64,000 bases of DNA from a virus (IMGVR_UViG_3300028653_000015:1-64000); one strand, 5' to 3'; positions 5,711 through 51,637 are shown, numbered from the stretch's first letter. The notes: a model not told the origin generated them from the sequence alone. Numbers and translations are program-made.

Positions 5711-6327
5711 TTAGCGTATCTGTCTCCAGAGCTGGGATCTATCTGCTTGACCGCACCTGACATCATGCCCAGTGCGGGTGATTGAGCAGGCAACATACCC
5801 CTGTCCTTCTGTACGCCAGATACTGACTTCTGGATGCCGGCCAACATGTTGGCTGTTTCCATTGGTACTGCTGGGCTACCTTCTGGGCCTCTATCAAGCA
5901 AATTACGAACGAATGACCCTGCAATCACAGGGTCAGCAGCCATGTGTGGGGACATGTGCCTGAGGGAGTTGTAGTAGGCTTGAACTCTTCCAGCATCTTC
6001 CTTTTGTAGCTCAGGATGGGCTTCGATCATAGCCTTGTACTCCATAGGCTTTTTGACCTTGTCCACACCCAGGTTTATCATCTGCCTGGCACCACGAATG
6101 CCGGCATCTAGCGCAAGACCGGCGGTTCCTACCACAGCAGCAGTCTGTAGGTTACCACCAAGGTTGTAGCCGAACCTCTGTGCATGTGTCTCTAGGGGTG
6201 AGGTTCCAGAGCGTAGGCCATCTAGTATGGACCTCAAGAGCCCAGGTGCCCTCTTTGCGACGCCCTCTCCTACCTCACCAACAACAGAAGCAGACTTATC
6301 CTGAAGAAACTCTTCTACTGGGTTCAT
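5707..6327 (-). CDS. Unknown virion-operon protein
   Basis: 206 residues, helical and alanine/glycine-rich, starting MNPVEEFLQDKSASVVGEVG. Residues about 60-85 (LQTAAVVGTAGLALDAGIRG) form a weakly hydrophobic segment. It could be an internal virion or ejected protein. The ATG comes directly after the stop of the upstream gene (TGATCAATG overlap region). No family was recognised. Confidence 0.45.
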   Translation of the reverse strand: MNPVEEFLQDKSASVVGEVGEGVAKRAPGLLRSILDGLRSGTSPLETHAQRFGYNLGGNLQTAAVVGTAGLALDAGIRGARQMINLGVDKVKKPMEYKAMIEAHPELQKEDAGRVQAYYNSLRHMSPHMAADPVIAGSFVRNLLDRGPEGSPAVPMETANMLAGIQKSVSGVQKDRGMLPAQSPALGMMSGAVKQIDPSSGDRYAK

Positions 6328-6632: not shown

Positions 6633-6876
6633 GGAATTCCTCTCCAGGCACTGATTCTGGGGGACTCTCTGGGTCTTCGCGAACAACTCTATTCTTAGAG
6701 CGCCCCTTACCCAGTTCTTTCATCCAATCTTCCACATGCTTACGTGTATACAGTGGGCACTGCCAATGCTTTGAACATATCTTCAAGCCCAGATACGTGC
6801 CCACTACTGAGCCGAAAGCTGAGGCTATCAAACTCAGTATCACTATCCAGGGTATCGCGGACTGCCAGGTAATCAT
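6610..6876 (-). CDS. Small single-pass membrane protein
   Basis: 88 residues. Residues about 9-32 (PWIVILSLIASAFGSVVGTY) are one strong transmembrane helix near the N-terminus, followed by two cysteines (CSKHWQC) and a charged tail. No lysis-protein family was recognised, but a holin- or spanin-like role cannot be excluded. The start ATG overlaps the stop of the upstream gene (ATGA), so it is translationally coupled. Confidence 0.45.
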   Translation of the reverse strand: MITWQSAIPWIVILSLIASAFGSVVGTYLGLKICSKHWQCPLYTRKHVEDWMKELGKGRSKNRVVREDPESPPESVPGEEFHAAIPVR

Positions 6877-7817
6877 TGGATCATCTCGTGCAGCTTAGAA
6901 CGAACTGCTGTCAACTGTTCGTCTAGCACTTCGATGCTCCTTTTAAGCACACGATGACCGTGTGCTATCTTGGTGAAGGCCACAAACTGCTCCACCAGGG
7001 GATGTGATGGGTTAGGTAGCGTTCCGGCACTGGCTGTCTTGCTGAACGATTTAGCCAACTCCTCTTCCGAGTGCCCACGGCTCTGTAGATGCTTGACCAC
7101 TATAGCCGTGGCCTCCTTTAACAGCAGTGCACTAGGTGCATAACCAGCCCACACTCGAGCTATGTCCCCCATGGGTGTACCAGTTTCAAGCTCTTGTGCT
7201 GCGGTCTTACAGAGGTCTGAGGACACATCATCATAGACCACACCGGAAGTAGAGAGCTTACTGATCATAGTCTCCCTAGTTCCCTCCAGGCATAGTCTCA
7301 AATCATTGAGCTCGTCTACTGGATTGTAGTGGCTCATATGATCTCTAGACACCTCTGCATGTACTGATGCAGTCTTTTCCTTGTCCCCAGCCTTGATGCC
7401 GAATGCCTCAGCAAGGGCTTCATCAGTAACTCCAGCCGTCTTGTAGTGCCCAGCTGTATCATGCTGGATGTAGTCACTAGATCCTACCTTGCTGAGCATA
7501 GGGTTGCCTCCGTCGTTCAGGTCTTTCAGGACCACACTGGGATTAGCTGGGCCACCTTCGAAGGTGACATTCCTCATCTCCCCGGCCTTCTCAAATTCGG
7601 AGAGGTAGGCATTGGTATTGGCGAACTCGCAGACCCTCTTCACCTGTTCTGGTGATAGCATGGCCTCTTTCACCACTTCCACCACTGCATCGGAGAGTTT
7701 GATACCCCGGTCGCTGTAGGCGGCAGCAGCACGTTTACCCATCAACTCTAGCTGTTCTGGGTCTACTGGTTTTGCTGCCTGTTGTAAAGCCAGGCCCAGT
7801 GGTAGAGAATCGCTCAT
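6873..7817 (-). CDS. Unknown virion-operon protein, first gene of the head transcript
   Basis: 314 residues, largely alpha-helical, with an ATG after AGAGGAGA. It contains repeated K-x-A motifs (VKEAM, YKTAG, EKTAS, CKTAA, SKTAS, TKIAH). There is no membrane segment or enzyme signature. It is the promoter-proximal gene of the 7817-to-1 minus-strand operon, behind a sigma70-like promoter. It could be an internal head or portal-associated protein; the family is unrecognised. Confidence 0.5.
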   Translation of the reverse strand: MSDSLPLGLALQQAAKPVDPEQLELMGKRAAAAYSDRGIKLSDAVVEVVKEAMLSPEQVKRVCEFANTNAYLSEFEKAGEMRNVTFEGGPANPSVVLKDLNDGGNPMLSKVGSSDYIQHDTAGHYKTAGVTDEALAEAFGIKAGDKEKTASVHAEVSRDHMSHYNPVDELNDLRLCLEGTRETMISKLSTSGVVYDDVSSDLCKTAAQELETGTPMGDIARVWAGYAPSALLLKEATAIVVKHLQSRGHSEEELAKSFSKTASAGTLPNPSHPLVEQFVAFTKIAHGHRVLKRSIEVLDEQLTAVRSKLHEMIQ

Positions 7818-8477: not shown

Positions 8478-8506
8478 GCAAAAACAGGGCTCTAGTAGGG
8501 TATAAG
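8478..8506 (+). promoter_or_regulatory. GCAAAA-N17-TATAAG promoter candidate
   Basis: GCAAAA (8478-8483), 17 bp, then TATAAG (8501-8506) preceded by GGG. It lies about 90 bases upstream of a well-supported start. The same arrangement occurs at 9219, 12837, 24304, 31966 and 51609. Downstream of several copies a second shared element, close to GAAGATCTAACCC, begins 12-16 bases after TATAAG. The leader (8524-8560) can fold as CCTAG/CTAGG or as GGTTGGC/GCCGACC, which overlap. Confidence 0.55.
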
Positions 8507-9218: not shown

Positions 9219-9247
9219 GCAAATTAGGTACCCCAGTCGGGTATAAG
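9219..9247 (+). promoter_or_regulatory. GCAAAT-N17-TATAAG promoter candidate
   Basis: GCAAAT (9219-9224), 17 bp, then GGG-TATAAG (TATAAG at 9242-9247). It is directly after a terminator and 55 bases before a gene start. The GGGTA is half of an inverted repeat, TACCC-N5-GGGTA. The downstream sequence GAAATCTAACCCC matches the secondary element seen after other copies. Confidence 0.55.
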
Positions 9248-9745: not shown

Positions 9746-12700
9746 TCAGAAGCTGTAATTCTCCATAAGGCCGCTGTCCTGCATAGGTGCAAAGATGTCT
9801 GGACGTGGTCTCTCTATGCAAGATGCCAACAAGCACAGAAGCATAGAGTGGAATGCATCATCCGTCTTTCCCGGCGGCTTCTTGTACTCGTTCATCCTGA
9901 GTCTCTCGTTGTGCTCGGTGAAGATGTTGAGGATGTCTGTACCATGTGGGTCCTGGTAGTCCTCCCACCTGGGCAAGTCTATCTTCTTTGCCTTCAGAGC
10001 ATTGAACCCATCGCTCATTACCTCTGTACGATGGCACATCCAGCGACGCAGGTTTGGCTCCCAATAGATCTTCTTTTTTTGCCTAGGATTGTACTGGTAC
10101 TTCATTACCTTGTTGGCGCCGAAACGCTTGATGAGCTTGTCGTTCTGATAGAAACCACCACCGTAGTCTACACCTATGATCTTAACGTGTACCTGAGACA
10201 ACATCTGCGTGAGTAGGTCCAGCTGCCGTTCTGGGTCTAGGTCTTGCCCAGTAAATCGATGACACCAGAAGATGGAGAAGTTGCCTGTGCCGAAGTATCC
10301 ACCAAATGAAACGTGAGTGAAGCTGGCGTTCTCTCCAGGACCCCAGTCCACTCCAGCATAGATGGACATACCCTGCGCTAGTCTACGAAAGGACTCTATG
10401 TCACCCAGTACGATCTCAGGCTTGCACACAGCCTGCAGTTGAGCTCGGGTGATTGGTCGTACACCGGAGTCATAGGACCTACCAAGCTTCTCATTCATGA
10501 ACTGGGAACGGGAGTATTGCTCTTGGGCTACTAGTACCTCTTCCCAGTCTACCCAGGGGACCATGATCTGAGGAATGCGGTATCCCTCGAAGGTAACCTT
10601 GTCCTTGTTGTCCTCCCGCATGGGGTTCATGGCAGCCCACTGTGCCATGGGATGCCGTGCGGTTATAGACTCCCCACACTTGTCACAGATGAGCCCCGTA
10701 GACCCTATGTTCTTCTCCGTTAGAACATTCCAATGCCAGGTACTCGAGTCACTGGGTAACCCATGCCGCTCACAGGGTACTACCCACTCGTTCTGTGAGG
10801 AGAACTCAGACCAGTAGAATTCTATGGTGTTATCTACTGACTTGGGTGTGCCTGAGTACAAGAATAGCTTGTAGCTAGAGTGGAAGGCACACTGCTCGAT
10901 GACTGGGATGTTATCGATCAAAACGTCTTGAAGCTCGTCGATCAGTACCATGTCTGCAGGAATACCACGAACACGGTCTGCAGTTAGATACGCATAACGA
11001 AGTCTGATCTGAGAGTAGTTGATAAACTTCTTGAAGAAGACAGCCTGGTTGATCTTAGCTGAGGTGTAGGACCTCAGCATGGGGGACGCATCTATGACAT
11101 CCTTGATGCGGTCATTGGAAAAGACCTTCGCCTGTTCCGCTGAAGGAGCTACGTACAGGGACCTGAAGTTGTTGGTGAGGGCTGAGTAGCAGAGCAGCCG
11201 GTTGCCCAGTGTAGTCGAGTTGTGTGTGATGAGTCCATCTACCACGAAGCTGTCAGTACCATCCACAGTGATGTCATAACAATCCTGCTCTCCCACCTCT
11301 TCGATACTCACTATCTCATCCCAGTACAAATCCGTGCTCAGGTGTTGAGCAAGGGCAGATGTTTTATCTTGATCAAATCTTGTGTCTGATCTGAAGAAGT
11401 CTACATACTGTTCAAGTTTGTCATGACTCAACAAGTACTTAGGTTTCTCCCTAAGTCCGGCAGATCTTAGGGATGGTTGTGGTACGTAGGGCCCGCTGCG
11501 GAAGCCGTTTCTAGACCTGTGTATGATAGCTATATCCTCCACAATACCAGCCGGGTACACATCCCTGTTGGAGTTAGTATCTACGTCGATGATTGGAATG
11601 TCCTCTGTCTTTCCAAGAGCACCAATGTCTTCTATGAATCTGACAGCCCCAGCTTGTGTTTCTATCCGCAGCTTGTACGCCCACTTGTCAGTACCTTTGT
11701 ACAATGTGGGTTTCCATCTACGTGTACTGGAAGGAATGCCAAACTTCCATAGAAGACGCTGCACATCTTTGATCAAGTGCTCAGAAATAGAATCGTACTC
11801 CAGGTGGTACGATGAATCTTGCAAACTTGCATGGCCATCGCCGGCCCATAAACGATTGATGAATAGGGCTGTTTGTCTTTGATCTAATCCCCACACAAAG
11901 TCTGGTACATGCTTGTCTGCAGACAACTCTCCCCAGATACCACACTCCTTCACCAGTTTTAGTACGGCAGACTCTGCATTGAATCGAATACTCCACAGGC
12001 CAGGCTTTCTCTCATTGGGGCTATAGTCATCACCTGCAACCAACTCTAGAAACTCCTGCAAGACTGGCCCTTCGCCCTGAGTAAAGGTACACGTATCTTG
12101 CTCGGGCAAGTACCCTTCTGCAATCATGTACGCTGCTAAGATCACCTTTCTATCTGGCGGAGTAGAAGTACTTGTAAACTCCCCAGCTCTCCGAACTGCC
12201 GCAATATGCTCCTGCTCAGAGAGACCACCAGAGATTGACCAGCCACCCCAGGTGCGCATTGGATGGGTCAATGCCACCACCACAGTATGGCCCTGTCTAG
12301 TCTTGATCTTTACGCAAGTCTTTCTAAGTTTTGCAGACTTCCAAGTTACTGATCCTATTTGTGTATGCGCACCATCAGGAGACATGCCTACTACTTTGTC
12401 TCCTACACAAATCTTCTCTAGGGGTGTTACACCGCCGTCTTCCATAGAAATCATGCTTGCTGCGAGACAGCATTTCTCTACCTGCCGGCCGCAAAGCATG
12501 AGAACTTTGTTTGCAGGCGTATCATATATCTTACGCAGGTACTCACGACCGGTAAATGAGAAGTCACCTATCCTACCCGCTTCAGGAACTCGAATCGCCG
12601 TCTCTGCGAAGTCGGATGGAGATACACCAAGCATCTCTGTAGAGGTAAGAGCACTAGAGGGGTCTACTTCTTCAGGCTCCTCGTCTATACCAAAGTCTAC

Positions 12701-12826
12701 AGCCTCGCCACCCTCATCATAATCAAAGATAGGTTCGACTATTCCATGATCATCAAAACAGTATGAGAGTGGAATGGTGTGTGCAGATCTAAGAAGTTCA
12801 GCCTCTGCCAGTGTGATTGTGGCCAT
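9746..12826 (-). CDS. terL: Terminase large subunit with in-frame intein
   Basis: DNA-packaging motor: an ATPase that pumps DNA into proheads plus a nuclease that cuts concatemers. The frame is 1026 residues, of which residues 119-536 are an intein; the spliced product would be about 608 residues. The exteins rejoin as CGRQVEK-STTLGN, the Walker A motif. Walker B is VLIDEL (628-632). A zinc-ribbon-like set (C685, C714, C717) lies between the ATPase and nuclease. Nuclease acidic residues are D827 (YAGVDWG), D887 (IIGVDYGG) and D989/D990 (KTDDAFH). It is downstream of unknown virion genes, with no recognised small terminase. The ATG lacks a strong ribosome site. Confidence 0.93.
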   Translation of the reverse strand: MATITLAEAELLRSAHTIPLSYCFDDHGIVEPIFDYDEGGEAVDFGIDEEPEEVDPSSALTSTEMLGVSPSDFAETAIRVPEAGRIGDFSFTGREYLRKIYDTPANKVLMLCGRQVEKCCLAASMISMEDGGVTPLEKICVGDKVVGMSPDGAHTQIGSVTWKSAKLRKTCVKIKTRQGHTVVVALTHPMRTWGGWSISGGLSEQEHIAAVRRAGEFTSTSTPPDRKVILAAYMIAEGYLPEQDTCTFTQGEGPVLQEFLELVAGDDYSPNERKPGLWSIRFNAESAVLKLVKECGIWGELSADKHVPDFVWGLDQRQTALFINRLWAGDGHASLQDSSYHLEYDSISEHLIKDVQRLLWKFGIPSSTRRWKPTLYKGTDKWAYKLRIETQAGAVRFIEDIGALGKTEDIPIIDVDTNSNRDVYPAGIVEDIAIIHRSRNGFRSGPYVPQPSLRSAGLREKPKYLLSHDKLEQYVDFFRSDTRFDQDKTSALAQHLSTDLYWDEIVSIEEVGEQDCYDITVDGTDSFVVDGLITHNSTTLGNRLLCYSALTNNFRSLYVAPSAEQAKVFSNDRIKDVIDASPMLRSYTSAKINQAVFFKKFINYSQIRLRYAYLTADRVRGIPADMVLIDELQDVLIDNIPVIEQCAFHSSYKLFLYSGTPKSVDNTIEFYWSEFSSQNEWVVPCERHGLPSDSSTWHWNVLTEKNIGSTGLICDKCGESITARHPMAQWAAMNPMREDNKDKVTFEGYRIPQIMVPWVDWEEVLVAQEQYSRSQFMNEKLGRSYDSGVRPITRAQLQAVCKPEIVLGDIESFRRLAQGMSIYAGVDWGPGENASFTHVSFGGYFGTGNFSIFWCHRFTGQDLDPERQLDLLTQMLSQVHVKIIGVDYGGGFYQNDKLIKRFGANKVMKYQYNPRQKKKIYWEPNLRRWMCHRTEVMSDGFNALKAKKIDLPRWEDYQDPHGTDILNIFTEHNERLRMNEYKKPPGKTDDAFHSMLLCLLASCIERPRPDIFAPMQDSGLMENYSF
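11219..12472 (-). mobile_element. Intein with LAGLIDADG-type endonuclease domain in TerL
   Basis: 418 residues. It begins at Cys119 of the frame (block A, CCLAASMISMEDG), has block B at about GHTVVVALTHP (180-189) and ends with block F/G, DCYDITVDG...GLITHN, followed by extein Ser537. All expected splice residues (Cys1, His-Asn, Ser+1) are present. Between the splicing blocks are two LAGLIDADG-like helices, VILAAYMIAEGYL (228-240) and ALFINRLWAGDGHAS (320-334), so it probably homes. It sits exactly between Lys and Ser of Walker A, so an unspliced protein could not bind ATP normally. Confidence 0.9.
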
Positions 12827-13066: not shown

Positions 13067-13585
13067 TTAGCCAGCTACTGCTTGCCCCAACCTGTGCGCT
13101 ACATTGAGTACGAAAGCAGCTACATGCTCCGGACTTTGTACACCAAGTGGCATGGTCTCCATAGGCATTACCACTGACCAGCTGTCTACTTCCGATACGT
13201 ACTTCACACTGGACGGGGTGTCTCTGAATTGATCTGATATTGCAGCCATTAGGCATGCCTGCATACCAGGCCACCAAGGCGTCGCCTCTAGAGCATTGTT
13301 TGCCAGCTCTGCTATGGACTGCCTATCTTCAGCAGAGCAGCCACCATCCAACTTACTTGTGGCAGAATCGAATATGTGCTTTCGATCTGTGTGGTAGAGG
13401 TGATAGATCAACAAGCCATCTTTAGCCCCAAACTCCACAAATAGTTTGCCTATGGTACATTCTTTGAACTTCGGAATGGCGCTGGCAAGTGCCCCTGCAG
13501 TGCAAGGGGCAGTAGGTAGCGTACCTACTGCAGCACACTCATTCTCATCAGCTTTGAACGGTACAATCTCTAGTTTCTCAGCCAT
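13067..13585 (-). CDS. Unknown protein upstream of terminase
   Basis: 172 residues starting MAEKLEIVPFKADENECAAV. The ATG follows GGAGGAAGCTG; the frame is open further upstream but within the preceding gene. The protein appears globular, mixed alpha/beta, with several cysteines (C33, C43, C59, about C102). No family was recognised. It overlaps the upstream gene by eight bases. Confidence 0.5.
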   Translation of the reverse strand: MAEKLEIVPFKADENECAAVGTLPTAPCTAGALASAIPKFKECTIGKLFVEFGAKDGLLIYHLYHTDRKHIFDSATSKLDGGCSAEDRQSIAELANNALEATPWWPGMQACLMAAISDQFRDTPSSVKYVSEVDSWSVVMPMETMPLGVQSPEHVAAFVLNVAHRLGQAVAG

Positions 13586-14486
13586 CAGCTTCCTCCAGTA
13601 ATCGGTCGGCCTCAGACAGCACATCAGTCCCACTACCAGACTGGCTGTAGTTTACACCAGCCACATCTTCGATAGCAGGAACTCTGTGATTGTCCTTCTT
13701 CATTCGGAACTTCTCGAAGGCATTCAGAACCTCACGCAGAGCCACGTCACTCTGGCGCATCTCGTCCTCAGCTGCCTTGATGACAGACATGTACTTACTC
13801 ATCATGTTGGCATGATCTAAAGATGCTGGCTCTCTTTCTATCTCCAACACCTTCAGGAATGCTACGTCACGCATACGGCGTGCTACAGCTCCAGTGTTGA
13901 TGTTGGAAGGAGGGCCCGACATCCCAGCCAACCAAGGCACAACCATGTCTGCTATGTCTGGTGATGCCTTCAGAGTAACGATACGGGAATAGGCCGCAGG
14001 CTTGTCATCCATGTACGCAACCCACTCCCCCATGGAGAGCAGCTTGCGATTCCAGAAGTAGTGGCCAAACGCCTCTACTCCTTCCACTGTCAGTTTGACT
14101 TTGTGATGCTCATTCAGTCTCCTGACTGTCTCCTCTATACGCAAGGGAGACAGCAGGAGCTGTTCAGTGCTTTCTCTTAGCCTTGGATTGCCTAGAATCT
14201 GGAAGGCTTCTTGAGCCCCCGCGCTGGGGTACCACAGGTCATGGATGCTGTGAGTACGTAGGTACTCTCTCGTAGCTAATTGCTCATCCTCAGTTCCCAG
14301 GTTGGGCGTTGGCGCCCAAGGCTCTGGAAAAGGAAGCATCTTTTCCTGTAGCTTCTCTATGTATCTACGATTGACAGAGTAGAGATTGTGATCTTCCAAC
14401 ACGTGGATAATAGTATCCACTGAGTGCTTCTGCTGACTGATCAAGAAGCAGATAAAGACCTCAGCTGGGGATCTGTTTATGTCCAC
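13578..14486 (-). CDS. Unknown protein near terminase, possible packaging accessory
   Basis: 302 residues from a GTG with AGGGGG ahead of it. The N-terminal 50 residues (PAEVFICFLISQQKHSVDTI) are helical and could be a helix-turn-helix. The central and C-terminal parts are helical and charged, ending in a long amphipathic helix. Its position two genes before TerL makes a small-terminase or neck role conceivable, but I see no diagnostic motif. Confidence 0.45.
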   Translation of the reverse strand: MDINRSPAEVFICFLISQQKHSVDTIIHVLEDHNLYSVNRRYIEKLQEKMLPFPEPWAPTPNLGTEDEQLATREYLRTHSIHDLWYPSAGAQEAFQILGNPRLRESTEQLLLSPLRIEETVRRLNEHHKVKLTVEGVEAFGHYFWNRKLLSMGEWVAYMDDKPAAYSRIVTLKASPDIADMVVPWLAGMSGPPSNINTGAVARRMRDVAFLKVLEIEREPASLDHANMMSKYMSVIKAAEDEMRQSDVALREVLNAFEKFRMKKDNHRVPAIEDVAGVNYSQSGSGTDVLSEADRLLEEADG

Positions 14487-16812: not shown

Positions 16813-18057
16813 CTATTTAAGCATCACTTTCTTGGATAGAATGGACTGCAATGTTCCCGCCTGTATGGGTGGAGAGTACGGCACATGTGTGTGGGTAGCA
16901 AGCCACTCCAACAACTTTAACCCAAGAGTGCCCGGCTCGGAAGCGTCAGGACCACCTATTTTTGTGAGGGGAGCATCGATTACCTTGATCTTAGCCCAAG
17001 TCTCGGTACTTGCATCCGACCCAGTGATGTTATGTTCACCTGTGATGGTCTCAGTAACCTTACCCTGCACAGTTACTGAACGGTCTCCGGTTACCTGAAT
17101 GGTTTGGTCTCCTTCAACAGTCAGGGAATCGTTACCCTTCACCTCCACCGTACGATTGCCAGCCTGCATGGAGTAGGAGTGGCCATCCTTAGATATCCTC
17201 AGTACGTAAGTTGGGTCTCCCGACACCTGGCCACTTGCTGGATCTATGTTACTGGGTGCAATCACAACCTCTATGAATGTTTTGTCATCACTAGGTCCGC
17301 CAGGAGGCTTAGGTTCTGAATTCAAAGAACCTACGCTAACCTTGATGGAGGCATTCCTGTCTTGTGCAAACTCCCTGGCCAGTAGGGTGAACTCAGTGGG
17401 TGCATTGCCCCCAGGATCTTTCTCGACAGGATGAACTAGCCAAGACAAAGAACCGGCCGCTGTGTTGAGCTCGTAGTTCTCACAGAAGTCACGAATGTAA
17501 TTGGCAATAGGGACATAGGCACGCTGGCATACGTTCGTAGATCCTATATGAAGAACTCCACCCCTCTTCAAGATCAAAAAGTTCTCATCCCTACCCTGTA
17601 TCCATATGTCGCCTGGATTCATTACAGGACGACCAGCACGATAGCTGGCGTCTGTAGTCTTGGGTGTGGTAGTACCACCTGAGTTGGTGGTCTGAGCAGA
17701 AGGCATGTCATCAGGACTCTCTACATCCGGGTCCTGCGACTCCTGTTGCACATTTCCAGAGGCAGCCCCTACTATTTCTGGAGCTGTGATGAAGCCCATG
17801 ACAAAAGGAGACTCCTCATCAGAGGGCCAGCACAACACGCAAATTGCCCCCACCTCCGGGCAGAAGTTGTACCCCTCCCCATTGTTGTAGTGCAGGTAGG
17901 GCGACATCACCTGTACTCCAGCCATCTGTTTTCCGCTGTGCTGTGCAGTCCAATCCACCGTCATGTTCTGGACGTTTACGCTGGCTATTACACCGGTCTC
18001 GAACCTTGCTGTTCTGTTACCAGTTCTAGAAGCGGAGTTCTTAAAGGAAGCAGCCAT
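16813..18057 (-). CDS. Baseplate spike / gp5-gpV-like protein
   Basis: 414 residues. Residues about 20-95 have an OB-fold pattern (PEVGAICVLCWP, then SPFVMGFI) as in phage Mu gp45, P2 gpV and the T4 gp5 N-terminus. Residues about 305-360 are short alternating strands (TVEVKG, DSLTVEG, DQTIQVTG, DRSVTVQG), the repeat of a trimeric beta-helix spike. No lysozyme domain is visible between them. Role: the membrane-piercing tip of a contractile tail, which supports a myovirus-type particle. It is placed directly after the RNA polymerase gene, with the ATG overlapping the end of that gene's leader. Confidence 0.72.
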   Translation of the reverse strand: MAASFKNSASRTGNRTARFETGVIASVNVQNMTVDWTAQHSGKQMAGVQVMSPYLHYNNGEGYNFCPEVGAICVLCWPSDEESPFVMGFITAPEIVGAASGNVQQESQDPDVESPDDMPSAQTTNSGGTTTPKTTDASYRAGRPVMNPGDIWIQGRDENFLILKRGGVLHIGSTNVCQRAYVPIANYIRDFCENYELNTAAGSLSWLVHPVEKDPGGNAPTEFTLLAREFAQDRNASIKVSVGSLNSEPKPPGGPSDDKTFIEVVIAPSNIDPASGQVSGDPTYVLRISKDGHSYSMQAGNRTVEVKGNDSLTVEGDQTIQVTGDRSVTVQGKVTETITGEHNITGSDASTETWAKIKVIDAPLTKIGGPDASEPGTLGLKLLEWLATHTHVPYSPPIQAGTLQSILSKKVMLK

Positions 18058-18060
18058 AGA

Positions 18061-21000
18061 TCAGTACCACTCCGGATGTTCTTTAGGTGGCTTGCCTAGC
18101 TCGGCGGCGTAAACGACCGCAGGAATTGGATGTAGGCCGTGTATATGGCTTCTCCATCCCTGTTGTGCTGCGCTGATCACAGTATCTGCCAAACCCTCGT
18201 GGTTGAGCTTGGCCATCCAATCTTCCTGCATGTCTAGTGGTAGTACATTCACACCCTTGAGTATGGGCTCATGAACTATAGGCCGTTCTCCCTTAGCCAT
18301 ACTTCTATTCAATGAGGACACGAATGTAGTGGGCGCAAAGTCACCTCGAATGAAGTGTGTGGAAGAGCCTGCATCCTTTATCTTGGTGAGGTTAGTGAGC
18401 GCCTTGATCACTACCTCATGATTACGTCTACGAATTCCTTGACCTTTGTACATGTCATCCAGATTATCTGCCAACATGACCTGTACTGGTTCAATTCCAG
18501 TCAGAGGCAGCATCTCATGCGGGTTCACCCTACCATCTGAGATGGGCAAGCCCTTCTTGACCTCTGTACCAACTACCAAAGGCTTTTTGTCATAGACTGG
18601 TACTCCTCTAGACAGCGGGATGTAGTGCCGCTCCCCCTCTATGAGTACGTTGTGACCTCCAGCCGTATCCTTTTCTATCTTGGTTACTTTACCAGATACT
18701 GTGCTCAGTGTTGCTGAACCTGGCAAATTCTTCGGGAACAGCAACAGGTCTTGCACCTGTTCAAACTGATCAACAAGTGCCGACTTCGATGAGGCAGTAC
18801 CACCAGTATGGAATGCTTTCATGGCTAGCTGTGTTGCACGTTCACCTATAGCCTGACCGGCAAGAATGCCTACGTTCAGTCCCCTCTCCGGTAGAGTTCC
18901 ATTCTCCGTCAGGCCATAGCACATCTGACACAGACCAGGTCCATGCAAACAACGCAGCGGAGATCTAACTACCACCTTACCCACATTGTTGTTCCTGAGA
19001 GCACTTCGCAACTCTGGGGTGATTAGTGTGCCTGACTTTACTATCCTGTTGCCAAGTCTGACATCTGCAGCTGTGAATCTATCTAGAATATCTTTCTCAT
19101 CTACGGATAGAGCGATCCCTTTGTTAGTACCACAGTCATGATCTAGAATGAGGTTATTCATCGTAGAGTTGATAACCTGCTTAGTGATATGACCAGGCTC
19201 TCTAACTGCCTGAACCTTCTGAATGACACCCTTGCGACCACCACTGGTAGCTGTCCAGTAACCGGCAATGTCTAAGCCCTCAGCATAAGACTTACGTACA
19301 GGGTTGGGTATGATCTCCCCTTTATGATTGGCCATGAGCATAGGTGCAGCTCTAGTCTGTCTTACGGTGTCCGTGCCACCCTTCATACCCGTGTTGTGCA
19401 ACAACATGAGATTGTTGCCCTCTTCTGGTACGGCCCTCAAGTGGGCATTTAACTCTTCTGTGGCCTTCGCATAGATCTCAATGGCTTTGGCGTCTCTAGA
19501 CGGCCCTGACAACTTCTCTACTCGGGCATCCGCCTTGGCTAGTATTTGATCTCTAATTTCCCGTATAGGAGCTACGTCTTTGAGACCAACTGAAAAGGCA
19601 GTCTGAGTGGCCCACATGTTGCCTAGATCTTTGAGCTTGTTGATGGACTGTCCGTACTCGTTCTTGTGCTCCTTCGCGATGCGTGTCATCAGCTCTTCTT
19701 GAGCTGATGCATTTAGAGGGTCCGTCTTCCCAAGATACTCTCCCCTCATAACCTCTGGTAATGCACCAGCGACCATGAACCTGCCAACTGTAGAGTGTAT
19801 ACCTCCAACCTTTATTTGGTCTGTGAGCTTTACCTCTCCCTTTCTGACCGCAGCCTCCACATCCTGAATCGTAGAGAATTCATGGCTGGTGACAGCTCCT
19901 ACACGTGTGAGTCCATACAAACCCAGCCTACTCTCTCCGGATGGGGAGTACATCAACTTACCAGTAGCGGGACTGAACAGGTTATTGGAGGGGAACATCT
20001 TGTGTGCTTCAGCCACGGCCTCTGAGCCTACAGGTACGAAGGCACCCATAGCGTCTCCATCGAAGTCCGCATTGAAACCACTGGTGACTAGTGGGTGGAT
20101 TTGAACAGCCTTTCCACCGACAATACGGGGCTTGAATGCTTGGATACCATACTTGTGAAGCACGGGGTCTCGCTTCAGGAGTATTGGCCTACTGAGGATG
20201 ACCCTATCTAAAGCTCGGTCTACTATCTCCCCACCCTCTTGCATTTTCTGCTGTGCCTGCAGAGGAGAGATGCCCATCAAATTTCGTAGTTCTCGAATCA
20301 CGAAAGGCTTGTACAGTTCTAGAGCTGCAGACTTTGGTATTCCAACCTCATCTAGGCTGAGTGAGGGCTCTGGGACAATCGTTCCACGCATAGTCATATC
20401 CTGTTTGCGTGTGACCAATTGCTCCTGGAAGAATCCCTCCTTTGGAGGGCCCACCTTGGCACCAGTACTGGGATCTACACGCTTGCCGGCAATGTAGTCC
20501 AAGATGCCTCTACGAATACCACGTGGGTAGCTGCCTATGCCCGCCAGCGCACGCAAACCATCATACACTTCTTGTCTCAGCTCCACCTTAGACTGATCAT
20601 CGTCCGGTATGAGCGGGGACATTTTTGCGTATCTGGATGCAGTCAGATGCAGATTCTTGTACAGACCATTCAAGTCATCTTCACTTATAGTACCGTTTGG
20701 AAGGATGGGCAAAGGACGCATGGATGGGGGAAGTACTGGCACACTCTGCATCATGTATGCATCACGGGGGCTGACACCGATCTTATCCAGCACCTTCAAA
20801 AACTTGACCCGTTTGTTTACGTCGTCTAGGTAGGACCCCTTGAGTGTTGGCTTCTGCAACTTATCCAAGGCAGCAACCAGGTCCTTCTTCACATTTATCT
20901 TTCCTAGTAGTGCAGCAAAAGCCTTACCACCCACTAGACCGCCCTTAATCTTCAGCGGGTCACCATACTTACCTGTAATGGGATCATAGGCTAGTGTACC

Positions 21001-24000
21001 TGCGATCAGTCCATCATACTGATTAGTCTTGAGTCCAGTCAGCTTTACTATGGCTCCCTCAAATACTGGATTCGGGAATGCTTCTGGCAATACGAAGTGA
21101 CTCCACTTATCCCCCTCCATACCACCTGTAATCTTCTGATCGAATAGACCACCTGGCTCAGGCCGCATGGTTTTAGCAACAGTCATCTTAGATGGATCTT
21201 TGAGCTCACCGTTGCTCATCTCGTGGACTTGCTTATCTGTCATAGGAGAAAGCGTCAGACTGTTTCCAGTCTTCTCTACATTCACATTCAGACCTTTGAT
21301 CAGACTGATGAACTTGTTGTACGCAAATGTAGGCTTTGGGGTAGGGAGCAGTTCTCCTGCTTGTAAAGCAGCCCAAAATTGATCTCCTTGGCCTGCATCA
21401 CTCTTCAATGTATTCATCTCGCGAAGGTTTGCTGTAGCTCCGTGAGCAAGCATAGAGTACAGACCCAACACTCCTAGAGACTGAGCGCCATGTGGACCAC
21501 CGCCTTTGGGTATCTTGTTCCTATCGTAGGCGTACCCATAACCCAGGGCTCGAGCACTGAGTTTCTTTTCTACCTGGTGGTGCAATTTGAGGACATGCAT
21601 AGGCCCTACTAGTGCATCTCCCATAGGTCTTCCGTTACTAGGATCGTAGACAGTTTCCTTATCCGTCAAGCCATGCTTAGCCAAATCCTGTGTAACCTGG
21701 GCATGTAAGTCTGCGCCTGGTTTGAAGTTCTTGGTAAAGTATGTCTTGCCTGTCTTTTCCGCAATCTTACCTGCAGCAACCTCCAACACCTGCCCTAGGT
21801 TGGTTCTACCAGTAACACCCAATGGGTTTAAGATCACATCTATGGGCCTACCATCTTTGGTATGTGGCGCCTCATGGTCAGGTATGATCTTAGTAATGAT
21901 GCCCTTGTTACCGTGGCGGCCTGTGATCTTGTCTCCAATCTCTAGAGTCTCTTCTGTCTTCACGTGAACGGCAACATTATGACCAGTCTTAACGACCTCT
22001 TTCACAACCCCTGGGTAGTCGTTGTCCCATGTAACACTGGCATCCTTAAATGGCCGTACAATCGACTTGTGCAGTTTGGATAGCTGCACATCCTCCCGCT
22101 TCTCTGACTCATTTGAAGCGCGTAGAGCAGCTATGAGAGTGTCACCAGGCATAACCACCGTGCCAGGCTTGATAACCCCCTCGTCATCAAGCTTCTCAGC
22201 TTGGGCTCTATTCATACCAGTGGGTATGTACGCCTGGAACTTACGCTTATCTAGGACGTGAGCCACATCCCTCTCGATTGAGTGCCTGTGTAAATGCTCT
22301 GACGTGAGCTTCTTAGCGGCACTCTCCGTAACTACAATACCATCTTCGTAGTTGTACCCCTTGTATGGCATGAACCCAACACGAAGATTGGTACCCAAAG
22401 CCAACACACCGTTCTTGGTGTAGTTGGTGTCGGCCACCGTCTGCCCAGCCGTTACCTTATCTCCCACCTTTACTATGGGTGTGGAGTGTAGAAAGGCTTT
22501 GTCCTCATTCAACGGAAAGTGATCATAAATCTGAACTTCGTGCCTCTTCCCATCTGCGCCTTTAATAACTACAGCATCTGATTTGATCTGAGCAACAGTG
22601 CCACTATCACGAGTATGGTGACTAGCAAAGCCTCCAACAAAGTGATCGAAGCTATGTACACCTGCCAAACTCTGTACAAGTGGGGCCTCTCTGTGCAGTA
22701 GAGAGACTGATTGCTCCATTTGCCGACCGGCCATTGTACTTCTGTTCGGGTGGTCAGCTGGCATGAAAGGGATGAGGTTCGATGCAAACGAGAACATTTG
22801 CATCGGGTCCTTCATTACATAGTCCGCACTCTTTATGGAGCCGTCATAGATCTCATTCTCAAGACCACTGATCTTTATGGAGGGTCCTATGGGTACTGGT
22901 TTGCCTTCTACCCACTTGACTTGGTCTGGAAGGACTACATGAGACCTGTAGGCAACTGTTGGGTTGACGTCCTCAGTCTTACCAGTATGTAGATTGTACA
23001 TACGGATGGTGACATCATGGCCGTTCTTGGTAACACCTATGGGCAGTCGTAGAGTGATGCCAGTCTCCTTGCCCTCTGGTGTGTGTATGGGATCCAGGTA
23101 GCCCAAATGGGACGGGTCTATCAGCTTCGCTTCATCAGAGACTGTGTGCTCGCTCTTGATACCACCATCTCCTGTGATGGTGGTCTTGAATTGAGCAGAG
23201 ATCATTTCAAGAGGATTGGTCTGGCTTGGTACTGAAGACAAAGAGTTCTTGGAGAACAGCTGCCGTATATGTCTATTGAAGATGTCCGGAGCTATGATGT
23301 CTCTGACCTTGTCCTTCTTGTCTACCGTATTTCCGATCTTACGTAAGATGTCTCTAGAGCCTCGAGTTATTCTCTCAGCTGCAAAGTCCTCCATCGAGTG
23401 AAGGTCCTTGAACATGATGGCGTCTCTAGGATCTGGCTTGGCCTCTCCACGAGAAATCTTGAGCAACTTGACGGAAGCATCTAGTAGCGTAGCACCAGTC
23501 ACGTTGGAGTGTGGCTTACCCAACGTGAGCATGTTGACGTCTGGATTCATCTTGGTGTTATCCATGACTTGCCAGAAGTGAGCACGCATATCCTCTGAAG
23601 TCATGATGGACGCGGGCTTGAGGCCCGTATCAGACTTGTAGAACTTAGCCAACGCCTTGGGCATGTCTGCGTGATTGGCAGCCGCAATATCCTTACCCCA
23701 CCTCTTCTCTACCTCCTCTTCCGGCATTCCCATAGCATGGAGTAAAGGCTTGAGAGGTATGTTGGAGTTACCATACCCCATAGAGAACTCACGAGTAGCT
23801 GGGTCAAAGTGGATCTTGAAACCACCTCCTGGTGCATTGAAGTGCGATTCTAATGCACCGTCAGCCTTGATCATATTGTATACGCCAGGCTTCAAACGCC
23901 ACTGGTTATCTACTTGGTACTCCTGACCATCAACTATGCTGCTGTATCGGTTAGTGATCTTAGGCAAGCTCATTAGCTTGATCTTCTGCCTATCTATCAC

Positions 24001-24240
24001 CTTACCCGTAGCATTGTCCTTCAAAGAGACCGTAGCCTCCACCGGTACCGCCCACGACTTACCCTCAAGTTTGGCCTCCTTCTGAGACCTGAAGTCACCG
24101 CTATCCAGGTTGTCCCTGACAGCTACGTCGTGAAGCTCTAGCGTGTTCTTCTTCCCTACTATCGGGAAGAGACCGCTGACTGCATTTTGTACTCGGTCTT
24201 TGAGGAGATCAAACCCCTCTGCCGGGACAATACGTGCCAC
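18061..24240 (-). CDS. Single-chain fused beta-beta' RNA polymerase
   Basis: 2059 residues from a GTG after TTTAGGAGAG. The first about 950 residues follow bacterial beta in order: HLGYLDPIHTPEGKETG (377-393), DHPNRSTMAGRQM (496-508), KGYNYEDGIVVTES (627-640), GDKITGRHGNKG (769-780, the active-site lysines K771/K779), LNPLGVTGRTNLGQ (804-817). From about residue 1025 it follows beta': GLFDQKITG, LPPSMRPLPILPNG, KRDPVLHKYGIQAF, then the Mg-binding NADFDGD (1390-1396), a bridge helix near 1617-1640, trigger loop near 1652-1680 and GQAIGERATQLAMKAFHTGG (1795-1814). Zinc site 2 is kept (C1703, C1764, C1771, C1774); the N-terminal beta' zinc site is absent. It is shorter than E. coli beta plus beta' (2749). 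Natural rpoB-rpoC fusions are known in Helicobacter and Wolbachia. No sigma, alpha or omega gene was recognised nearby. It lies among virion genes, so it may be packaged or late. Confidence 0.95.
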   Translation of the reverse strand: MARIVPAEGFDLLKDRVQNAVSGLFPIVGKKNTLELHDVAVRDNLDSGDFRSQKEAKLEGKSWAVPVEATVSLKDNATGKVIDRQKIKLMSLPKITNRYSSIVDGQEYQVDNQWRLKPGVYNMIKADGALESHFNAPGGGFKIHFDPATREFSMGYGNSNIPLKPLLHAMGMPEEEVEKRWGKDIAAANHADMPKALAKFYKSDTGLKPASIMTSEDMRAHFWQVMDNTKMNPDVNMLTLGKPHSNVTGATLLDASVKLLKISRGEAKPDPRDAIMFKDLHSMEDFAAERITRGSRDILRKIGNTVDKKDKVRDIIAPDIFNRHIRQLFSKNSLSSVPSQTNPLEMISAQFKTTITGDGGIKSEHTVSDEAKLIDPSHLGYLDPIHTPEGKETGITLRLPIGVTKNGHDVTIRMYNLHTGKTEDVNPTVAYRSHVVLPDQVKWVEGKPVPIGPSIKISGLENEIYDGSIKSADYVMKDPMQMFSFASNLIPFMPADHPNRSTMAGRQMEQSVSLLHREAPLVQSLAGVHSFDHFVGGFASHHTRDSGTVAQIKSDAVVIKGADGKRHEVQIYDHFPLNEDKAFLHSTPIVKVGDKVTAGQTVADTNYTKNGVLALGTNLRVGFMPYKGYNYEDGIVVTESAAKKLTSEHLHRHSIERDVAHVLDKRKFQAYIPTGMNRAQAEKLDDEGVIKPGTVVMPGDTLIAALRASNESEKREDVQLSKLHKSIVRPFKDASVTWDNDYPGVVKEVVKTGHNVAVHVKTEETLEIGDKITGRHGNKGIITKIIPDHEAPHTKDGRPIDVILNPLGVTGRTNLGQVLEVAAGKIAEKTGKTYFTKNFKPGADLHAQVTQDLAKHGLTDKETVYDPSNGRPMGDALVGPMHVLKLHHQVEKKLSARALGYGYAYDRNKIPKGGGPHGAQSLGVLGLYSMLAHGATANLREMNTLKSDAGQGDQFWAALQAGELLPTPKPTFAYNKFISLIKGLNVNVEKTGNSLTLSPMTDKQVHEMSNGELKDPSKMTVAKTMRPEPGGLFDQKITGGMEGDKWSHFVLPEAFPNPVFEGAIVKLTGLKTNQYDGLIAGTLAYDPITGKYGDPLKIKGGLVGGKAFAALLGKINVKKDLVAALDKLQKPTLKGSYLDDVNKRVKFLKVLDKIGVSPRDAYMMQSVPVLPPSMRPLPILPNGTISEDDLNGLYKNLHLTASRYAKMSPLIPDDDQSKVELRQEVYDGLRALAGIGSYPRGIRRGILDYIAGKRVDPSTGAKVGPPKEGFFQEQLVTRKQDMTMRGTIVPEPSLSLDEVGIPKSAALELYKPFVIRELRNLMGISPLQAQQKMQEGGEIVDRALDRVILSRPILLKRDPVLHKYGIQAFKPRIVGGKAVQIHPLVTSGFNADFDGDAMGAFVPVGSEAVAEAHKMFPSNNLFSPATGKLMYSPSGESRLGLYGLTRVGAVTSHEFSTIQDVEAAVRKGEVKLTDQIKVGGIHSTVGRFMVAGALPEVMRGEYLGKTDPLNASAQEELMTRIAKEHKNEYGQSINKLKDLGNMWATQTAFSVGLKDVAPIREIRDQILAKADARVEKLSGPSRDAKAIEIYAKATEELNAHLRAVPEEGNNLMLLHNTGMKGGTDTVRQTRAAPMLMANHKGEIIPNPVRKSYAEGLDIAGYWTATSGGRKGVIQKVQAVREPGHITKQVINSTMNNLILDHDCGTNKGIALSVDEKDILDRFTAADVRLGNRIVKSGTLITPELRSALRNNNVGKVVVRSPLRCLHGPGLCQMCYGLTENGTLPERGLNVGILAGQAIGERATQLAMKAFHTGGTASSKSALVDQFEQVQDLLLFPKNLPGSATLSTVSGKVTKIEKDTAGGHNVLIEGERHYIPLSRGVPVYDKKPLVVGTEVKKGLPISDGRVNPHEMLPLTGIEPVQVMLADNLDDMYKGQGIRRRNHEVVIKALTNLTKIKDAGSSTHFIRGDFAPTTFVSSLNRSMAKGERPIVHEPILKGVNVLPLDMQEDWMAKLNHEGLADTVISAAQQGWRSHIHGLHPIPAVVYAAELGKPPKEHPEWY

Positions 24241-24541: not shown

Positions 24542-24645
24542 TTTGGCACTTTGTCTTCAGCCTTTTGGCGGCATATATGACAGTACTAATGATCCCCAGG
24601 AAACATGCTTGCGCCGCTAATCATCAGACCGAGCTTTGTCTGTAG
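24538..24645 (+). CDS. 35-residue putative membrane peptide
   Basis: Starts on an ATG overlapping the preceding stop. Residues 2-19 (IWHFVFSLLAAYMTVLMI) form one hydrophobic helix followed by a basic, cysteine-containing tail. It overlaps the next gene by 41 bases in another frame. No clear ribosome site, so expression would depend on coupling. It could be a chance frame. Confidence 0.25.
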   Translation: MIWHFVFSLLAAYMTVLMIPRKHACAANHQTELCL

Positions 24646-25108
24646 AATCTGTTCCTCTCCTATGGAGAACGACGACCCAGATGAACCTCCTGAGCCTATA
24701 GGAGCAGAGTTAGTAGTGATCGAAAATGGCAAGATACTCCCTATGCGCAAAGACCCGAACTTCTTTGTGTTCCACTCGTGGGCAGATGTGCCACCTGGTG
24801 AACTACCTGAGGGTATACAAGCGGAAGTATCTATCTGGCACAAAGAGTGCTTCGATAATGTCTACAACGAGGTAGATGACAGTGTGCACGCTATAAGCAC
24901 ACGATACTGTGCTGTGTGTGATGGAGATTTCGATGCCAATCCATACGGCAATCAGATCACATTAGGCAGGCTTGATCTAAGCGAGGAAGTGTTTGTAGAA
25001 GACGGCTCTGCCGCAACCAGAAAACTGTGTAGGCATTGTCTGCACAGGGTATTGGGAGAGGGAGACCCCGAGGAGGGGGCTGCCCTACTAGAGAACAGTT
25101 TGTTGTAA
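24605..25108 (+). CDS. Zinc-ribbon protein of unknown function
   Basis: 167 residues, with an ATG after AGGAAAC. Cysteine pairs at FVCRIC (C13/C16), HKEC, YCAVC and LCRHC suggest two zinc ribbons, with an acidic Pro-rich stretch between the first pair and a central domain. It may bind nucleic acid or a protein partner. It is a member of a plus-strand island wedged between RNA polymerase and portal, so it is probably expressed at a different time from both. Confidence 0.5.
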   Translation: MLAPLIIRPSFVCRICSSPMENDDPDEPPEPIGAELVVIENGKILPMRKDPNFFVFHSWADVPPGELPEGIQAEVSIWHKECFDNVYNEVDDSVHAISTRYCAVCDGDFDANPYGNQITLGRLDLSEEVFVEDGSAATRKLCRHCLHRVLGEGDPEEGAALLENSLL

Positions 25109-25121
25109 TACGGGAAGGACG

Positions 25122-25148
25122 AGGTAGCCCACAAGGTGTGGGCTACCT
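25122..25148 (+). terminator. Strong intergenic hairpin
   Basis: AGGTAGCCCAC / GTGGGCTACCT, an 11-bp perfect stem with a five-base loop, between two plus-strand genes. There is no T-run after it, so it may be a terminator needing other factors, an attenuator or an mRNA-processing or stability element. Confidence 0.4.
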
Positions 25149-25186
25149 ACCGTCCGACCATCACCACAAAGAAAGGAGGAACAGCT

Positions 25187-25615
25187 TTGCCAAGGTACAC
25201 TGGAGTCATAGATCCCACGGTACCAGAAGTCACATGGGAGAATTTCAGAGAGATGTGTTTTATGGTTGTTGAAAACCCACTGAATTTCTACCTAGAACTA
25301 CATAAGGGCGAATTCGGAATGCGGCCAGTATACGAACCCAGAGGACACAAAGAAGGACAACCAACAGAAACCTGGTGGTTCCCAAAGTTCATCGCAGAAG
25401 GATTCGTAGAGAAGTACAAGGCAAACATTCCATCAGTTGATCCGAATTGGCCAGACGAAATGGCGGCTGCAGTATACAAGGACTGCAAGCCGTATGAGGA
25501 ACACCTGGCACGACAGAAGACTGCAAGAACCTCGCAACACCAGAAGCGGTGGAGATACATAGTCTCCACAAAGCTGTCTGTGGAACAACAGAATAAGAAG
25601 GAAGATAGTGGCTAA
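25187..25615 (+). CDS. Unknown small protein
   Basis: 142 residues from a TTG preceded by AAAGGAGGAACAGC; the strong ribosome site decides this start over in-frame GTG 25136, which lies within the upstream hairpin region. The protein is basic, with many aromatic residues (VTWENFREMCFMVVENPLNF) and a Lys/Arg-rich C-terminus. No family was recognised. Its last four bases overlap the 3' end of the converging portal gene. Confidence 0.45.
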   Translation: MPRYTGVIDPTVPEVTWENFREMCFMVVENPLNFYLELHKGEFGMRPVYEPRGHKEGQPTETWWFPKFIAEGFVEKYKANIPSVDPNWPDEMAAAVYKDCKPYEEHLARQKTARTSQHQKRWRYIVSTKLSVEQQNKKEDSG

Positions 25616-27654
25616 ACCATCGCTGCTTCAGGTCCTCGCTGTGGAGGTCTCTGCATAGGCAGGGCTCTCGCAGACGCGGCTGAGGCAGCGGTGGGGCCAT
25701 TTGCTCCGCTCATCATTAGCCCAACAACCGTATCATGCAACTCTGGGCTGCGTTCTTGTAGACGTCTGAGCGTTACTGGCTTCTCTGCAGGAGTGAGCCT
25801 CGATATCTTGTCCGCCAGTTGTCTAGCCATGTACAGCAAGTCTACATTCATCCCACCCGCGATATCTGTGTTGGTGGCTGTAGCTGGATGTTGTTGAATG
25901 CTGCTCAGACTGAGTGGAGATGTGATCTCTTTTGGAGGTGAAATCAAGGATGGGTCTCTTGGTGTGGGTGCCATGTCTGGAGACTTCTGTGGTGCAGGCT
26001 GACCCGTTTGTGCAGCCGCTTGATCTTGCATCATTCCACTCTGAATCTCTGACTGGAATGTCATCTGTTCCTTGGCCGCTTCTGTCTGTATCGCAGCCTG
26101 CTCCACCATGGCCTTGGCTTGTGCTTTGTTCTGCCACTTGGCTGTGACAAGCATGGCCTCTCCCTCCATCTCCGCCTGTAGCAGTCGCTGCTTCTTCATC
26201 GCAGCTACCCTACGAGAAGCCTCCACTTCCATGATCTTGTCTTCTTTAGCCGAGTCGTAGTCAGCATCTGCCATCAAGGACTCATCAGACATCTTGCCAG
26301 CTTGGTTAAGCTGGAAGAGATATGCCTTCCTCTGTAGATCGTCCGCCATCTTGAACGGCTTGAACCTTGCCCCCACCTTGGGCCAGCTCAAGTAGGATGC
26401 TGTCCTGTCAATCACCCACCGCAATAGGGATAACTGGTCAGACAAGTAGCCCAAGAACATGTTCTCGAGCATGCGCAAAGACACGTTAGATCCTGAGTAG
26501 CTAAGCCCACCAAAGATCAATTCGTTGGGTACTCCCATACCAGCAACAATATGCTCAGACCATACCCGAATCTCTTGACTGAGAAGTAGGGCCCTGCCAT
26601 CGCCGCCTATCGTCTCTTGACCAATAGGAAGTGGTAGGATGGGTATGTAGTTGTTGTCTGCACGCCACCGACGTAGCTCGCCCGCAATCTGATCATGCCA
26701 GTCCTGCAAGTTGACTGTGGTGTAGGGGTCACTGGTGGCAGAACCCGACTGTGGGAACAGCATCCTCAGGGGAACGATATGCTCAAGAGCTATGGATTCC
26801 TGGGCCTTCCTGAGCACCTGCAGATAGAAGGTATCCTTCAGTACTGGCAAAATCATAGGAGTACCCCAGCCTCTATCTTTGCCGGCAAGGGTAGGCCGCT
26901 TGAAGTGGTAGATATTGTCCCTGCTGAACACGACAGCCTTCCTCAAACGAAGGGCGTCGATGAACAGCTGGGGCACACTCTCTACCGCCGATTTTTTGCC
27001 TATTATAATGTCGTTCTTCAGCTGCACCGGGATCGAATAGTAGTACTCGTACTCCCCGCTGATGTCGTTGTATCGGATGTCAATGTCTTCCGGATTCCAT
27101 CGTAGTAGCCTGATACCCTTGGGTGCCTTGATGTAATGGTCCCGGACCTTGGCTATACCAGAATGATCGCACTGCTCACACTGCCAGTGGAACTCGAAGT
27201 TCATGAACCTGTATATGGCATCAGATGCCTGCTTCTCGAATCCGCAGCGTGTGCAACGAAGAATCTTCACGAATGGATAAAAGATGCTGACAAGAGCATT
27301 CCCGTAGGTGTAATAGTCCAGACCTATTTCGATCTGAAAAGGACGGTACCTTAGTTGCTCATTGAGAAAGCTGTTCCAGCTCTCCTTCAAATCTTGCTTT
27401 TCGGTGTCTAGGATGATGTCTGTAATGGGGTAGTCTGCCATCTTGGAGACTACGGCATTGATCAGTGGATTCACCAGGAAGTAGTACCGACACCACCGGA
27501 ACATCTGCTTGACCGTAGCTGGCAAGTAGGTCTGTCCGATATCGAAGAACGGGCTAGGGTATTGCAGACCGTAGTCTGAGGAGCTACCGGTACGTCCTCT
27601 AGTCCTAGAGAAGCGGAGAGCAGAGGAATCTGCACCACCTAAACCTGCACTCAT
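25612..27654 (-). CDS. Portal protein with inserted zinc ribbon
   Basis: 680 residues. The portal is the dodecameric ring at the capsid vertex through which DNA passes. The fold is suggested by an N-terminal region ending in NPLINAVVSKMADYPITDI, a long central helix-rich wing and stem (IVAGMGVPNELIFGGLSYSG), then a helical Gln/Ala-rich and disordered C-terminus. Residues 134-162 contain CTRC...CEQC, a zinc ribbon inserted in the wing. The start overlaps the upstream stop (ATGA). It is the second recognised core head gene after TerL on this strand, with RNA polymerase downstream. Confidence 0.8.
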   Translation of the reverse strand: MSAGLGGADSSALRFSRTRGRTGSSSDYGLQYPSPFFDIGQTYLPATVKQMFRWCRYYFLVNPLINAVVSKMADYPITDIILDTEKQDLKESWNSFLNEQLRYRPFQIEIGLDYYTYGNALVSIFYPFVKILRCTRCGFEKQASDAIYRFMNFEFHWQCEQCDHSGIAKVRDHYIKAPKGIRLLRWNPEDIDIRYNDISGEYEYYYSIPVQLKNDIIIGKKSAVESVPQLFIDALRLRKAVVFSRDNIYHFKRPTLAGKDRGWGTPMILPVLKDTFYLQVLRKAQESIALEHIVPLRMLFPQSGSATSDPYTTVNLQDWHDQIAGELRRWRADNNYIPILPLPIGQETIGGDGRALLLSQEIRVWSEHIVAGMGVPNELIFGGLSYSGSNVSLRMLENMFLGYLSDQLSLLRWVIDRTASYLSWPKVGARFKPFKMADDLQRKAYLFQLNQAGKMSDESLMADADYDSAKEDKIMEVEASRRVAAMKKQRLLQAEMEGEAMLVTAKWQNKAQAKAMVEQAAIQTEAAKEQMTFQSEIQSGMMQDQAAAQTGQPAPQKSPDMAPTPRDPSLISPPKEITSPLSLSSIQQHPATATNTDIAGGMNVDLLYMARQLADKISRLTPAEKPVTLRRLQERSPELHDTVVGLMMSGANGPTAASAASARALPMQRPPQRGPEAAMV

Positions 27655-31965: not shown

Positions 31966-31994
31966 AGCAAAAAGCTCAAAACCACGGGTATAAG
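31966..31994 (+). promoter_or_regulatory. AGCAAA-N17-TATAAG promoter candidate
   Basis: AGCAAA (31966-31971), 17 bp, GGG-TATAAG (TATAAG at 31989-31994), 70 bases before the next plus-strand start. A reverse-oriented TATACCCC follows at 32005-32012, giving an inverted GGGTATA/TATACCC pair. Confidence 0.5.
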
Positions 31995-32485: not shown

Positions 32486-32519
32486 TTGACACAATGCAAT
32501 TAGACGCAGTCTAATTGCA
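32486..32519 (+). promoter_or_regulatory. Sigma70-like promoter overlapped by a palindromic operator
   Basis: TTGACA (32486-32491), 18-bp spacer, TCTAAT (32510-32515). A perfect 11-bp inverted repeat TGCAATTAGAC-GCA-GTCTAATTGCA (32495-32519) fills the spacer and covers the -10. A start codon with a good ribosome site follows at 32544. It looks like a repressor-controlled promoter for the replication operon; as RNA it could alternatively be a hairpin. Confidence 0.6.
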
Positions 32520-51608: not shown

Positions 51609-51637
51609 CCAAAATACATACCCTACGAGGGTATAAG
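51609..51637 (+). promoter_or_regulatory. CCAAAA-N17-TATAAG promoter candidate
   Basis: CCAAAA (51609-51614), 17 bp, GGG-TATAAG (TATAAG at 51632-51637). An ATACCC-N5-GGGTAT inverted repeat lies over it (51619-51635), and GAAGATCTAACCC follows 12 bases later, matching the downstream element at 9239. Confidence 0.55.

Follow-up and report, generated by a model that had tools for sequence, protein, structure and literature searches.

Phages encode RNA polymerases (RNAPs) of the cellular, two-barrel type in several arrangements. The jumbo phages of the phiKZ/AR9 type carry relatives of cellular RNAP, one form of which is virion-borne, with a core made up of four or five polypeptides and with two RNAPs per phage (PMC7598289); no sigma has been found in phages of this type (PMC7824862). 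Crass-like phage gp66, gp96/gp64 of P23-45 and YonO are highly divergent single-chain two-barrel RNAPs, and P23-45 gp96 is a virion RNAP (PMC10770324). The crAss enzyme gives no detectable match to hidden Markov models of cellular beta and beta' (PMC7481178). The multi-subunit-RNAP-encoding Caudovirales (mReC) of Weinheimer and Aylward (2020) have near-cellular RNAPs that branch outside the bacteria; that paper deals with beta and beta' as subunits, its text mentions fusion for crAssphage only, and the major capsid proteins that it detects are all PF07068 (PMC7481178). The RNAP of phage Arash is presented, in the accessible part of its description, as ordinary beta and beta' subunits, fusion not being remarked on there (PMC10585845). 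Among cells, the RpoBC of Helicobacter and Wolinella is a natural, functional, collinear beta-beta' polypeptide (PMC9696931, citing J. Biol. Chem. 1998 and J. Bacteriol. 1999). The subject of this report is a phage gene at positions 18061-24240 of a 64,000-nucleotide stretch of viral DNA (IMGVR_UViG_3300028653_000015:1-64000; the window, below) that joins nearly complete beta and beta' in one chain of 2059 residues.

The gene is a single open reading frame with a GTG start and no internal stops. Pfam beta domains (Rpb2_3 at residues 339-398; Rpb2_6 at 546-900, 4e-62) are followed in the same frame by beta' domains (Rpb1_2 at 1279-1415, 1e-25; Rpb1_3; Rpb1_5 at 1655-1958, 5e-20). Alignment to E. 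coli RpoB and RpoC places the beta/beta' junction at about residue 989, with practically no linker, and gives each catalytic element its E. coli counterpart: D1392, D1394 and D1396 of NADFDGD (exactly residues 1390-1396) on beta' D460, D462 and D464, K771 and K779 on beta K1065 and K1073, and E632/D633 on beta E813/D814, with R1357 also in this set. Both marks of the two-barrel RNAP family, the DxDxD triad and the two beta-barrel lysines, are present. The trigger-loop residues and the second zinc site are located by the same alignment (Table 1), and the clamp helices and flap are retained. The protein lacks the first zinc ribbon of beta' (residues 67-98 in E. coli) and three stretches that are inserted in the E. 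coli subunits, 228-359 and 932-1035 of beta and 944-1130 of beta'. The rifampicin pocket differs at Q513S, D516S, H526A, R529K and S531T (E. coli numbering). The original prediction, made before any alignment, had described a near-complete collinear fusion of this length with these active-site and zinc residues, and had surmised the loss of the first beta' zinc site and of other lineage-specific domains; it is borne out on each of these points. All 45 full-length relatives compared retain the Asp triad and the two lysines, some of them only ~27% identical, and the trigger-loop His is likewise conserved among them. Three relatives (L022, L057 and L099) have other residues in place of the whole cysteine set of the second beta' zinc site, a coordinated loss.

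AlphaFold2 models of two fragments are confident. Residues 1000-2059 (42 sequences; pLDDT 85) match bacterial beta' along their length (TMq 0.84, E 5e-68), and residues 490-1665 (pLDDT 89) match beta' over ~780 columns. The lack of a two-barrel active site, named beforehand as telling against the claim, is not seen in these fragment models, and the beta' half is like that of bacteria. In a viral structure library the best matches are separate phage beta' chains, with no fused entry among the matches listed.

The fusion is confirmed as real and widespread. The window comes from a viral contig in IMG/VR that is 79,115 bases long; an overlapping record of 133,510 bases (G001) is 99.95% identical to window positions 1-30346 (30,346 bases), and the two together span ~182 kb, similar to Arash (180.8 kb) and Vibrio phage D69 (186.7 kb). 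Distinct relatives matched over their full length number 76, at 27-100% identity, from viral contigs and one contig of a Deltaproteobacteria metagenome-assembled genome; under translation table 11, one continuous frame covers both halves in 72 of them, and stops interrupt the frame in the other four. Ten further relatives break at residue ~1478. The Deltaproteobacteria assembly has its cellular rpoB as a gene apart from the fused one. Phage genes are found throughout the window (terminase, portal-like and baseplate genes, DnaB, primase, PolA, UvsX, a Cas4-type exonuclease and thymidylate synthase), and cultured phages have the same block. The 72 distinct fused frames and the overlapping record rule out an assembly or frameshift artefact or a chimera, and the phage genes and shared block rule out a cellular contig, the two objections that the original prediction had raised against itself. 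We found nothing in support of either and give them practically no credence.

Searches for alpha, sigma and capsid genes, and counts of RNAPs, were made in 20 related records, some of them fragments. Each of the 20 has one RNAP beta gene (in G003 an insert divides it, so that a single frame gives two matches), in contrast to the two RNAPs of phiKZ-type phages and their cores of several polypeptides. Like the crAss and YonO enzymes, the window protein has both barrels on one chain; in contrast to them, it matches cellular domains, Rpb2_6 at the E-value given above. With the mReC it has in common a tailed-phage contig, an RNAP recognised by cellular beta/beta' models and a branch apart from the bacteria, but its RNAP is one chain and not subunits. 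A gp23-type PF07068 major capsid protein was detected in none of the 20 related records, the positive controls (Rhizobium, Cobetia and Vibrio Va2 phages) being detected, and the group is therefore not filed as mReC, from which capsid type and the published description set it apart. (Two published mReC representatives come from metagenome 3300017989, which is also home to the fused relative L060.) Helicobacter-type RpoBC is cellular, has both beta' zinc sites and has alpha in the same genome, whereas the window protein is phage-encoded and lacks the first site, and no alpha subunit domain rose above the cut-off in the related records. The RNAPs of Arash (Gp206 and Gp216; OQ632216) and of Vibrio phages D69, D181 and D148 are homologues, 31-34% identical over most of the length; the phages share with the window a fusion of beta to the N-terminal part of beta', a portal gene upstream, virion genes and genomes of ~181-187 kb, but the C-terminal part of beta' has its own gene, whereas the window protein is one chain. 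Thus, the contrast originally drawn with phiKZ and YonO stands, but the novelty was overstated, the mReC, Helicobacter-type RpoBC and the part-fused, virion-borne Arash homologue having been overlooked. A near-complete, widespread phage beta-beta' fusion was not found reported in the open literature searched, subscription papers and supplements being outside the search. The novelty is moderate: near-cellular phage RNAPs, natural fusions and single chains were known already.

In Arash, D69, D181 and D148, beta and the N-terminal part of beta' form one protein of ~1525 residues that ends after the DFDGD barrel, with the remainder of beta' (~610 residues, from about residue 1480) encoded separately; in D181 and D148 the first frame is further interrupted. 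A tree built on 1876 columns and rooted on bacteria, with no archaea or eukaryotes in it, separates phages from bacteria (SH-aLRT 100) and nests the Arash type inside the fused group. A fused-only clade that excludes the Arash type is rejected (approximately unbiased test, p 1.6e-8), while a clade of fused and Arash-type sequences apart from the separate-subunit Cobetia and Yersinia phages is not (p 0.43). The deepest branching order is unsafe, as long branches are present (L091, Cobetia/GN1). The nesting, together with the rejected fused-only clade, argues that the two genes arose by a later split, and on these sequences the Arash-type arrangement is best read as a secondary split within beta'.

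The gene lies in a block of structural genes (Table 1), with the portal gene as its next same-strand neighbour upstream, an order common to the window and Arash. The homology of that portal to Arash gp204 comes from an iterated profile search (69 loci). Between portal and RNAP are two small plus-strand genes (24605-25108 and 25136-25615), conserved in 18 and eight loci, respectively. In Arash, mass spectrometry of particles finds Gp206, the beta-beta' N-terminal fusion, as the most-detected protein, with complete coverage, and also finds Gp216 (the C-terminal part of beta'), the sigma factor Gp10 and Gp220-222 (PMC10585845).

Table 1. Coordinates of the single-chain RNAP gene, its parts and other features, in window positions
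Feature	Position	Strand	Basis
Single-chain beta-beta' RNAP gene, 2059 residues	18061..24240	-	open frame; Pfam Rpb2_3/Rpb2_6/Rpb1_2/Rpb1_3/Rpb1_5; relatives
Beta-homologous part, residues 1-989	21274..24240	-	alignment to E. coli RpoB
Beta'-homologous part, residues 990-2059	18064..21273	-	alignment; model of 1000-2059
Beta active-site block GDKITGRHGNKG (769-780), K771 and K779	21901..21936	-	alignment, relatives
NADFDGD (1390-1396), catalytic Mg-binding Asp triad	20053..20073	-	triad invariant in 45 full-length relatives
Clamp-helix equivalent, ~residues 1189-1232	20545..20676	-	alignment to E. coli beta' 260-309; helices in model
Bridge helix, ~residues 1658-1693	19162..19269	-	36-residue predicted helix
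Trigger loop 1800-1814, M1807 and H1811	18799..18843	-	alignment to E. coli, relatives
Second zinc site C1703, C1764, C1771, C1774	18919..19134	-	alignment to E. coli
Portal protein gene, next same-strand gene upstream of RNAP	25612..27654	-	Arash gp204 homologue, E 5e-182; PHROG portal weak
Baseplate hub/lysozyme-like gene, directly downstream of RNAP	16813..18057	-	homologue of Arash gp238, annotated structural
Structural-module gene	13578..14486	-	homologue of Arash gp219
Terminase large subunit	9746..12826	-	phrog_675, 2e-54
Homologue of Arash gp220 (in Arash virion)	6873..7817	-	homology
Homologue of Arash gp221 (in Arash virion)	5707..6327	-	homology
Homologue of Arash gp222 (in Arash virion)	3863..5710	-	homology
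Promoter motif, GGG before TATAAG	8478..8506	+	motif scan
Promoter motif	9219..9247	+	motif scan
Promoter motif, just before replication module	31967..31994	+	motif scan

Two sigma-like genes are found in G001, one of 202 residues with regions 2 and 4 and one of 157 residues with region 4. The virus also has a bipartite, promoter-like motif, GCAAA-N17/18-TATAAG, usually with GGG before TATAAG (also written GCAAA-N17-GGGTATAAG). The form GCAAA-N(14-18)-GGTATAA has eight exact sites against 0.03 expected from Markov simulations, and the reversed-pattern control gave zero in G000 and G001. Several sites lie shortly 5' of genes on the plus strand, one of them where the replication block begins; no exact site lies upstream of the RNAP gene or the structural genes. 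The motif is only sporadic in relatives and is thus particular to this virus or to others closely akin to it. A relaxed form occurs at window position 51630, and the motif is also present in L141 and G001.

On balance we favour the view that the gene encodes an alpha-less, single-chain RNAP core that is carried in the virion and used with a phage sigma on GCAAA-N17-TATAAG early promoters. The product would be a DNA-dependent RNAP of the bacterial, two-barrel type, with its catalytic core in one chain. Since hardly any linker separates the last residues of beta from the first of beta', the two double-psi barrels would fold together as halves of one molecule, with no need of an alpha dimer to join them. 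The enzyme would be made late, with the structural gene block, packaged in the virion, and brought into the cell alongside the DNA, where, with a sigma-70-type factor of the phage, it would transcribe early genes from these promoters. We infer the activity, packaging, injection and sigma partnership of the window protein, as well as the use of the motif by it rather than by host RNAP.

Several points weigh against this view. The Arash authors mention passive inclusion of abundant enzymes in particles as an alternative (PMC10585845). The Arash enzyme is in two pieces, not one chain, and presence in particles is known for that homologue only. The clamp helices are, in bacteria, the binding site of sigma region 2. 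In the alignment several of the residues of E. coli beta' that contact sigma (R275, L282, E295 and A302) are not conserved, which makes sigma docking uncertain. Of the 20 related records, 11 gave no match to sigma region 4, although fragments among them cannot show absence. The motif resembles a sigma-70 promoter (TATAAG), and host RNAP might read it together with the phage sigma. Alternatively, the protein might be a true single-chain RNAP that is not a virion component and that serves middle or late genes, with host RNAP reading the early genes and any RNAP in particles representing passive carry-over; that there is only one RNAP per record fits this, as does a -10 element usable by the host enzyme. 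We consider it unlikely, though a serious contender, as the gene stands in the structural block behind the portal and not among the replication genes, and as Gp206 is so prominent in purified Arash particles.

The retained clamp helices, flap and second zinc site, and the failure to find an alpha gene in the related records, would also suit an active RNAP that works with host alpha, omega and sigma, or only as a modified host-like holoenzyme. The fusion, however, removes the role of alpha in assembly, and the phage side has sigma-like genes and a promoter motif of its own; we regard this as quite improbable. Still harder to credit is a catalytically dead derivative of RNAP that serves as a structural protein of the virion: abundance of the Arash homologue in particles would agree with it, but the catalytic residues are invariant even among the most distant of the 45 relatives compared.

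If active, the protein would be a self-contained bacterial-type RNAP core on one polypeptide, without alpha, and near enough to the cellular enzyme that every catalytic element can be compared. It would offer a natural test of the roles of alpha and omega and of the first zinc ribbon of beta', and an easily expressed system in which to study transcription of the bacterial type; if injected, an RNAP of ~225 kDa would have to pass the phage tail. Part-fused relatives in cultured Salmonella and Vibrio phages make the idea testable. A broader proposal, which we put forward tentatively and with rather less assurance, is that of a large, unrecognised phage lineage in which a one-chain, alpha-free RNAP, delivered by the virion with its own sigma, is the sole phage RNAP, the one-chain form being ancestral and the Arash-type split within beta' later. 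With split and fused members as well as intein-bearing ones, the family also illustrates how the subunits of RNAP have joined and come apart during evolution.

Some relatives carry in-frame inserts of ~320-510 residues, placed at the RNAP motifs that are conserved best (NADFDGD, HGNKG and the trigger loop): at residue ~1396 in L009, L011, L014, L015, L017, L019, L096 and L103, at ~783 in L017, L036 and L089, at 947 in L059 and L076, and at 1772-1812 in L059, L080 and L089. Some of these genes hold several inserts, and those scanned (in L009 and L017) match LAGLIDADG and, weakly, intein-splicing models. In Vibrio phage D181 (L004), a homing endonuclease gene within the RNAP gene splits beta near residues 401-496. 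In L070 and L098, two relatives on contigs of 102 and 210 kb and with a gene GC content of ~0.35, the in-frame stops of the RNAP gene are all TGA, several of them at conserved Trp columns, which suggests that TGA is recoded as Trp there. A near-perfect inverted repeat, TGCAATTAGACGCAGTCTAATTGCA, at window positions 32495-32519 and again at position 69612 of the source record, is repeated in G001 and is a possible operator. From about position 94293 of G001, in the part of the virus beyond the window, there are 37 tRNA genes.

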